The notes under the pieces are model-generated. The model did not search any database and was not told the origin of the DNA. It saw nothing but the letters and a program-made list of their open reading frames with translations. From the NCBI RefSeq assembly GCF_016406125.1, contig NZ_CP066339.1, positions 5,084,001-5,148,000 of the forward strand: DNA of 64,000 nt, given 5' to 3'. Source of the stretch: Alicyclobacillus sp. SO9. Its GTDB lineage: Bacteria; Bacillota; Bacilli; Alicyclobacillales; Alicyclobacillaceae. How positions within the stretch are numbered: the stretch's first letter is position 1; each line of letters begins with the position of its first letter. Positions 1,231-2,610 of the stretch are shown here, one piece after another. A program made the translations under genes and the position numbers.

Positions 1231-1765
1231 CTGCGTTCTCCTTATCTGCTGGTTAATCGACGGACTTTACACCCGTTATACGGTCTACATGAATGGATGG
1301 TTCACTTTGACTTTGGTCAGACAATCACATTGTAATGGTCGAATAGAGACAGAGCGCTGCGCCTCCTTTTGTTCCTCCTCTTTATTTGACGCCGGAAATT
1401 CGGTATTCACTGCAAACAATTTGAAAATTAATTTCGATATAAAGTGTTATCGAACATGTTGACTCCATCGTTACCAGCATCGTTGACGGCATCCAAACGA
1501 ATCTGCAACTTTACTTTACACGTAGACTGTTCGCCTCTAGCACATGAGTTTAGTATTATTCTTCCCAAAATGGAAGAAGAATTACCGTCTGCTTATTTCT
1601 TCAATTTTGATACATCTGGCTAAACCTTCATCAATTTTATTTACTTCTACGCCACCGTGGTCTACAACCATACCCCTCCCCCGCCGCGCTGGGCCTTAGT
1701 CACGACGTCACCCATCTGCATACACTGATCAGAACGAATAATTGATGTAATGGGGGAACGATGCC
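1231..1765. other. 535-bp intergenic region
   Basis: I see no convincing gene here. It contains a short inverted repeat (TTCTTCC/GGAAGAA, 1559-1578, 6-nt loop) without a T-tract. It must hold the divergent promoters of the ABC operon and the peroxiredoxin gene, but no clear -35/-10 pair was recognised. Confidence 0.5.
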
Positions 1766-2392
1766 GTGACGGACCAAGGAAGTTTCGGACAGAAGTCGAT
1801 TGTCTTATCCTCAACCTATCCATCACAAGGTTGTGTGTCTCAGGGTGATGCAGCACCTGCATTTACTGCGGATGCTTTTGCAAAGGGAAAACAGCGGGAG
1901 GTTAAATTAGAGGATTACAGAGGTAAGTGGGTCGTTCTTGTCTTTTATTCAAGTGACTTTACCTTTGTCTGACCGACAGAACTGGCTGCGGTCGCAGTCA
2001 TTTATCCGAGGCTGAAAGAACTGGACGCCAAAGTCCTTGCTATAAGCACAGACAGCATCTACAGCCACAAAGTGTTTAGTGAAACCTCTCCCTCAATGCA
2101 GCATGTAAGCTATGCCCTGTTAAGCGACAGAAACCACCGCATCAGCAGAAGTTACGGTGTGTTGAATGAGGAAAAGGGGACGGCAATGAGATCGACCGTA
2201 ATTATCAATCCTGAAGGGCTCATCGAAGCGAAACTGGTGTATCCATCTCAGGTCGGAAGAAACACAGCAGAAGTCATTCGTATTTTAGAAGCACTGCAGT
2301 TTAACCGACAATCAAACTTGGGAGCACCCGCAAACTGGGTGCCTGGTAAACCAGGCATACCCATCGACATTTCACACGCAGGTAAAATATAG
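1766..2392 (+). CDS. Peroxiredoxin (AhpC/Prx1 family), probable selenoprotein with in-frame TGA at codon 69
   Basis: Thiol peroxidase family that reduces H2O2 and organic peroxides. The frame is open from GTG 1766 (GGGGGAA upstream) to 2392 except for one TGA at 1970-1972. That TGA falls exactly on the peroxidatic residue: DFTFV-(TGA)-PTEL against the family motif TFVCPTE. Homology continues without a frame change (STDSIYSH, SPSM, LLSDR, GRNTAEVIRIL, PANWVPGKPGIP). The position where 2-Cys members have the resolving Cys (VCPANW) is Ala (GAPANW), so this would be a 1-Sec enzyme; the only cysteine is Cys23. A SECIS-like hairpin follows the TGA (separate entry). No selA, selB, selC or selD is in the window. 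The alternative is a nonsense-mutated pseudogene, but the exact position and the hairpin argue for Sec. Confidence 0.82.
1983..2000 (+). promoter_or_regulatory. Bacterial SECIS-like hairpin for UGA-selenocysteine decoding
   Basis: Seven-bp stem (1983-1989 with 1994-2000, one G-U pair) closed by the 4-nt loop GGUC at 1990-1993. The loop GGU begins 18 nt after the UGA. In E. coli fdhF the apical GGU also lies about 18-21 nt after the UGA, and loop G and U are the bases known to be bound by SelB. The element lies inside the coding sequence, as bacterial SECIS elements do. Confidence 0.75.
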
Positions 2393-2513: not shown

Positions 2514-2545
2514 GCCTGATGGTTTTGCCATCAGGCTTATTTTGT
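2514..2545 (+). terminator. Rho-independent terminator after the peroxiredoxin gene
   Basis: Perfect 9-bp stem GCCTGATGG/CCATCAGGC with loop TTTTG, followed by TTATTTTGT. It lies about 120 bp after the peroxiredoxin stop. Confidence 0.85.
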
Positions 2546-2610
2546 CCTACAGTCTGCGACTGAATGTTTGCTAAAATAAGGACAAGACAGTTTTCCGGGA
2601 GCTGGTTCAA

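Follow-up and report, generated by a model that had tools for sequence, protein, structure and literature searches.

A variant branch of putative selenocysteine-containing peroxiredoxins in Bacilli and Clostridia with a member in Alicyclobacillus sp. SO9

Results

A peroxiredoxin gene with UGA at its catalytic codon

The 64-kb stretch of the Alicyclobacillus sp. SO9 genome analysed here (hereafter, the window) contains a gene that almost certainly encodes a functional selenocysteine (Sec)-containing peroxiredoxin (Prx) of the AhpC/Prx1 fold, whose active-site residue 69 is very probably a Sec inserted by means of a reprogrammed stop codon. Sec-peroxiredoxins as a kind are already known. Judging from sequence comparisons, the window gene is a member of a distinct variant branch of this kind, which is found in Bacilli and Clostridia.

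The gene occupies positions 1766–2392 of the plus strand, begins with GTG, ends with TAG and encodes 208 residues. It was delineated by translation of the frame and by comparison with homologues, given that 72 of 114 loci (counting the window) have TGA at this codon. The only interruption between GTG 1766 and TAG 2392 is a TGA at 1970–1972 in the context DFTFV-U-PTELAAVA, and this codon aligns with the catalytic codon of homologues, as the first-pass annotation had it when it placed an in-frame UGA at the peroxidatic position (TFV-U-PTE). A GGGGGA stretch (1752–1757, plus strand) that lies 8 nt 5′ of GTG 1766 is, by its sequence, a possible ribosome-binding site, and a second in-frame GTG is found at codon 24.

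TGAs surrounded by open frame are frequent, since the window carries 21 with at least 60 open codons on each side (20 besides the one at 1970–1972). The UGA in question is set apart from chance by (i) homology on both of its sides, (ii) TGA at the corresponding codon in 71 other loci (68 once three duplicate records are removed), and (iii) covariation of the hairpin that follows it. The Pfam AhpC-TSA domain (PF00578) spans the UGA, matching residues 27–155 (5.4e-36, 123.7 bits against a cut-off of 26), which agrees with the earlier reading that homology resumes in frame past this codon. The peroxidatic motif of the protein, TFVU, has the form (T/S)xxU. The predicted fold has a mean pLDDT of 89 and matches AhpC/Prx1 proteins with query TM scores of 0.81–0.85 in the ten best cases, and the solved structures nearest by sequence are those of 2-Cys peroxiredoxins. 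Residues Arg142, Arg165 and Arg172 are invariant across 40 aligned rows, and any one of them could be the conserved active-site Arg of peroxiredoxins. Alignment A2 holds 40 of 51 listed sequences.

The gene is located on the 5.2-Mb contig of a 5.29-Mb, two-contig genome and appears to be a standalone unit with its own terminator-like hairpin. The latter (2514–2546, plus strand) comprises 10 pairs and a T-rich tail, resembles a Rho-independent terminator and lies 121 bases past the stop codon; the terminator scan that identified it found four such sites in the region against 1.8 expected. A search for sigma-70 promoters on the plus strand upstream of the gene gave no site, with counts at chance level. 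For seven TGA loci (L079, L082, L087, L090, L091, L099 and L113), we compared the flanks by eye, using lists of open reading frames with the first 60 residues of each, and saw no shared neighbour gene.

The catalytic codon in homologues

We read the catalytic codon in 114 loci, of which 34 came from searches of the same genome and its order and 80 from named genomes. The latter are the best 80 among 137 relatives retrieved with peptide patterns of the query, a sampling in which distant Cys forms are underrepresented. In this set of loci, which includes those best 80 of 137 relatives, the codon is TGA in 72, TGC in 30 and TGT in 12. Removal of the duplicate records L022, L025 and L081 leaves 69 TGA rows and 42 Cys rows, and all 69 distinct TGA rows carry T or S at the (T/S) position of the motif. 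Of the 58 loci that are at least 47% identical, a number that counts the window, the three duplicates and relatives drawn from the best 80 of 137, 57 have TGA; the lone exception is an AhpC (L036) with 47.4% identity over its best stretch. The TGA members are spread over the Bacilli (Alicyclobacillus, Bacillus, Mesobacillus, Salipaludibacillus, Fictibacillus, Alkalihalobacillus, Robertmurraya, Ammoniphilus and Rossellomorea) and the Clostridia (e.g. Maledivibacter, Thermohalobacter, Clostridium magnum and Desulfosporosinus). The Bacilli that host TGA peroxiredoxins are probably aerobic for the most part. Four candidates for TGA members, L030–L032 and a match in genome G019, were rejected: the search table lists a TGA for them, but their catalytic codon is that of Cys.

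A tree of 106 of the 114 rows, built with the catalytic site hidden and rooted at the midpoint for drawing only, places 56 rows on the side of the query, and all of them have TGA. On the opposite side, together with the Cys rows, fall 11 TGA rows that resemble the Sec-peroxiredoxin PrxU and two further TGA rows, L141 and L153. The Sec/Cys label requires four changes on this tree compared to about 31 when shuffled. Support for the base of the query's side is modest (88/63), and that for an inner group of 54 rows is 99/92.

A hairpin downstream of the UGA

Ten bases past the UGA, the transcript can form a stem-loop UGGCUGC-GGUC-GCAGUCA (1983–2000, plus strand, −9.9 kcal/mol), which we identify as a putative bacterial SECIS element on the basis of covariation, folding and fit to the bSECIS model. 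Its 7-bp stem, its apical G-GU-C and the start of the GGU at position 1990, the 18th base after the UGA, are as originally described for this DNA. The published bSECIS model (PMC13188914) is fitted by the loop GGUC, 7 bp, 17 nt and −9.9 kcal/mol of the window hairpin.

Folding of the single sequence is unconvincing on its own because its signal fades as the flanks grow. For a 22-nt stretch trimmed to the hairpin, z is −4.1 and none of 200 shuffles is equally stable; for 36 nt, z is −1.35 with 16 of 200 shuffles equally stable; and for 65 nt, other pairs are favoured and z is −0.58, with 48 of 200 shuffles equally stable. A scan of positions 1900–2100 against Rfam returned no match.

The comparative evidence was derived from a gapless alignment, A1, of 58 of the 69 distinct TGA rows. 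The 11 omitted rows, ten PrxU-like ones and L153, were left out mostly because their stem does not align; L130 and L137 are among them despite a closely similar motif. The positions at offsets 17 and 26 from the U of the UGA, both third codon positions, form a standard pair in 56 of the 58 rows (A-U in 37, G-C in 10, G-U in 6, C-G in 2 and U-A in 1, the window itself), and they pair in 11 of the 42 Cys homologues. The closing pair of the stem is present in 58/58 rows of A1 versus 4/42 Cys homologues. Across all 69 distinct TGA rows, with the PrxU-like ones among them, the frequencies of pairing drop to 58/69 for the synonymous pair and 61/69 for the closing pair. The outer bases of the loop covary around an invariant GU (G-C 27, A-U 22, C-G 4; 54 distinct rows), and in the bacterial SECIS model of PMC13188914 they are the N1/N2 pair. 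Over the whole structure, the covariation score is 0.336 against a shuffled mean of 0.161, and it is reached by none of 500 shuffles. The number of double-change pairs does not discriminate (4, where the shuffles average 3.2 and 175 of 500 are as high). With the structure slid by −3 columns, 91% of cells still pair, but the covariation score is 0.129. The lower stem is less conserved, its three outer pairs being found in 43, 40 and 47 of the 58 rows. Taken as a comparison of aligned sequences, the hairpin is conserved and covaries as the bacterial SECIS model expects, and the Cys homologues are without it.

The loop reads CGUG, with the closing pair kept, in four Desulfosporosinus/Peptococcaceae rows (L115, L116, L118 and L120), while others have GGUC or AGUU. 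The natural loops GGUC, AGUU and CGUG make a ready test set for recognition by SelB in Bacillota.

Sec machinery in the host and its relatives

The host genome encodes tRNA-Sec (anticodon TCA), a SelB of 651 amino acids, SelA (559 bits) and SelD (400 bits), so that the machinery which the first-pass annotation had expected elsewhere in the genome is present in full. SelD itself carries an in-frame TGA, at KSG-U-GCK, as does one of the four formate dehydrogenase alpha subunits (L165, C1:3654414-3656426), the other three having Cys. Counting the Sec-peroxiredoxin, SelD and this alpha subunit, TGA evidence points to at least three selenoprotein genes in the host.

In the order-wide search, loci were obtained for up to 30 matches and every row with an internal TGA was examined. 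Among the matches listed, a catalytic TGA occurs in nine of the 59 genomes (G000, G018, G020, G027, G030, G039, G040, G056 and G058). SelB is above the cut-off in 28 of the 59 genomes. All nine TGA genomes contain SelA, SelB and tRNA-Sec, compared to 19 of the 50 others for SelB (Fisher p 0.0005, relatedness uncorrected and with TGA called among the matches listed). Outside the order, we looked for SelB and tRNA-Sec in 36 genomes (31 with TGA, 5 with Cys) chosen from those that hold the 80 relatives' loci. Each was found over the cut-off in 30 of the 31 TGA genomes, and both together in two of the five Cys-Prx genomes. In Clostridium manihotivorum CT4 (L125), a complete chromosome, neither SelB nor tRNA-Sec was found over the cut-off, though the UGA gene and its hairpin are present. 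Either a UGA can persist after the machinery is gone or SelB and tRNA-Sec escaped the search; it is possible that the Sec trait was recently lost in this strain.

These data bear on the possibility that the Sec codon is ancestral and now poorly used or silent in the SO9 strain, with Cys-type relatives doing the work. The genome does carry other Prx-like genes, among them L018, L019 and L020, all three of the Cys type with TGC or TGT at the site, and in C. manihotivorum the gene persists although the search for SelB and tRNA-Sec gave neither. Against this, the host has the complete machinery along with two more TGA-containing selenoprotein genes, and the stem in the window is maintained by a U-A pair that is seen once in 58 rows, which makes a silent codon very improbable.

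In the genome of Mesobacillus boroniphilus that contains L083, the SelB match (G060:C232:20379-22151) is interrupted by a single in-frame TGA and begins at position 32 of the model; this TGA may be a mutation, a frameshift or an assembly error.

Selection downstream of the UGA

The region 3′ of the UGA is under purifying selection in close pairs of TGA loci. After the UGA, dN is 0.046 and dS 0.68 for L026–L027 (dN/dS ~0.07), dN is 0.027 and dS 0.50 for L082–L083 (dN/dS ~0.05), and dN/dS is ~0.09 for L103–L107. Between the window and L079, for which synonymous sites are saturated, dN is 0.20 after the UGA, less than the 0.54 before it.

A broken Cys-peroxiredoxin gene, in which TGC or TGT has mutated to TGA, could be imagined given that Cys occupies the site in 42 of the 114 wider-family loci and that the host has the three Cys-type relatives named above. 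The first-pass annotation had proposed an alignment of homologues at this site, with Cys codons and no conserved hairpin in close relatives as the sign of such a mutation; the close relatives have TGA rather than TGC or TGT, and their hairpin is conserved and covarying. A nonsense mutation is highly improbable in view of the same TGA across Bacilli and Clostridia, the covariation of the hairpin, the selection that acts past the UGA and the presence of Sec machinery in the genome, and we dropped this reading on the first three counts. Decoding of the UGA as something other than Sec, whether through suppression or through a variant genetic code, is scarcely credible for a codon at the catalytic Cys position that is followed by a SECIS-type hairpin in a genome with tRNA-Sec and SelB.

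Relation to PrxU and other peroxiredoxins

With residue 69 taken as Sec, the protein can be compared to its known relatives. Typical 2-Cys AhpC/Prx1 enzymes, such as Salmonella AhpC and human Prx3, share its fold, and the model matches PDB entries 4xs4, 4mab and 5jcg. It differs from them in having Sec in place of the peroxidatic Cys, Ala in place of the resolving Cys and Ser in place of the motif Pro.

A Sec-peroxiredoxin, PrxU, was reportedly described from Eubacterium acidaminophilum by Sohling in 2001. PrxU (NCBIfam NF040737) and the window protein have in common the AhpC/Prx1-type domain and Sec at the peroxidatic site (TxxU), and the PrxU-like rows that we read likewise lack the C-terminal resolving Cys (GEVMPSGW and similar). 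However, the window protein scores 172.7 bits, under the NF040737 cut-off of 270, and branch members L079, L082, L093, L099, L113 and L115 as well as the outlying L142, all seven that were scanned, score 159–199, whereas the PrxU-like rows L138 and L130 pass, the two scores being 323 and 396 bits. Furthermore, the branch of the window protein is separate in the tree, and it has lost the motif Pro in 46 of 56 rows, compared to its retention in 10 of 11 PrxU-like ones.

The databases already hold genes of this type, since RefSeq annotates a CDS through the UGA in Cytobacillus spongiae: WP_225003809.1, 'peroxiredoxin' (L166, NZ_CP089998.1 486630-487226). It is 58.9% identical to residues 46–208 of the query and has the same UGA and hairpin, an N-terminal Cys and GVPANW. 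It is found on a 690-kb plasmid record, unlike the window gene with its 5.2-Mb contig. A 'selenocysteine-containing peroxiredoxin PrxU' of the acidophilic Sulfobacillus thermotolerans is named in a proteomics paper, which states that it is upregulated on ore concentrate (PMC7409299).

The first-pass annotation considered such a protein unusual in Bacilli, which holds only in part: TGA members are spread over many Bacilli and Clostridia, one of them annotated by RefSeq in Cytobacillus. A table in a 2006 survey gives three selenoproteins for Bacillales and enters 12 against peroxiredoxin (PMC1794560), and a 2026 review says that selenoproteins are rarely retained by aerobic bacteria (PMC13188914). 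Compared to the three selenoproteins tabled for Bacillales, Sec-based peroxide defence would extend to many sampled Bacilli. In a literature search of titles and abstract openings, with thin coverage of subscription journals, none of the papers listed dealt with the Sec-peroxiredoxins of Bacilli collectively.

A variant active site and an N-terminal cysteine

A Prx atlas describes the Pro in Pxxx(T/S)xxC as definitive and the motif as common to all Prxs (PMC5302317). This Pro is replaced by Ser in the window protein and is kept in 10 of the 56 main-branch rows, the others having Gly (18), Ser (13), Ala (13) or Leu (2); it is found in 41 of 42 Cys rows and in 10 of 11 PrxU-like rows. As the domain score and the fold still put the window protein in the Prx superfamily, we read the Pro-less motif as a variant site. 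The C-terminal CPA.W resolving motif of typical 2-Cys Prxs is absent as well: the window protein reads GAPANW, with Ala187 (codon 2324–2326, plus strand) aligned at the place of the resolving Cys, a replacement already recognized in the first-pass annotation. None of the 56 main-branch rows has Cys there (Val 33, Ala 13, Ile 7, Thr 3). A branch that falls under the PrxU cut-off and departs from the atlas motif raises the question of whether a peroxiredoxin with Sec can more readily dispense with the Pro and with a resolving Cys near the C-terminus.

The sole Cys of the window protein, Cys23 (codon 1832–1834, plus strand), resides in an N-terminal extension, 46 residues before the Sec and seven residues before a conserved AP (residues 30–31), and the aligned Bacilli-clade rows make it a candidate resolving thiol. 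The Bacilli clade comprises 30 rows, of which 29 are readable in this region (the N-terminus of L096 is not, and this row was excluded). A Cys is found in the N-terminal extension in 27 of the 29 and at the place aligned with Cys23 in 24; the three Salipaludibacillus rows have theirs five residues earlier only, and the two Robertmurraya korlensis rows have none. Among the Clostridial rows, the N-terminal Cys is variable. Judged by this distribution, an N-terminal resolving Cys is possible yet cannot be required in every member. The original designation as a '1-Sec form' holds in that no resolving Cys is left at the C-terminal site, but it does not account for Cys23.

We propose the following course of events. 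SelB carrying Sec-tRNA-Sec would bind the hairpin at 1983–2000 and place Sec at the UGA at 1970–1972, as the conserved machinery and element suggest. The selenol of the Sec would then attack H2O2 or organic peroxides, a role consistent with the fold and the active site. The resulting selenenic acid could be reduced directly by an external thiol in a 1-Sec cycle or, more speculatively, could first form a selenylsulfide with Cys23, whereupon a thioredoxin-type donor would complete the reduction. The prevalence of the N-terminal Cys in the Bacilli clade (27/29) makes a Sec/Cys cycle possible. A doubtful extension is that the Bacilli branch, having lost the C-terminal Cys as well as the motif Pro, has turned to another thiol, and that the N-terminal Cys (PFCATRDDxAP) resolves the Sec in a Sec-Cys selenylsulfide cycle. 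If true, this would be a different resolving position for such a cycle, in hosts that are said to have few selenoproteins.

Two UGA peroxiredoxins outside the main branch, L141 (ACPANW) and L153 (LCPLEW), keep the C-terminal Cys, which suggests separate Cys-to-Sec changes. Locus L097 (JADPRS010000021.1) clusters with Clostridial rows in the tree, although the name of its record, Lutibacter sp. B2, would make it a member of the Bacteroidota; this name may be wrong or the gene may have been transferred.
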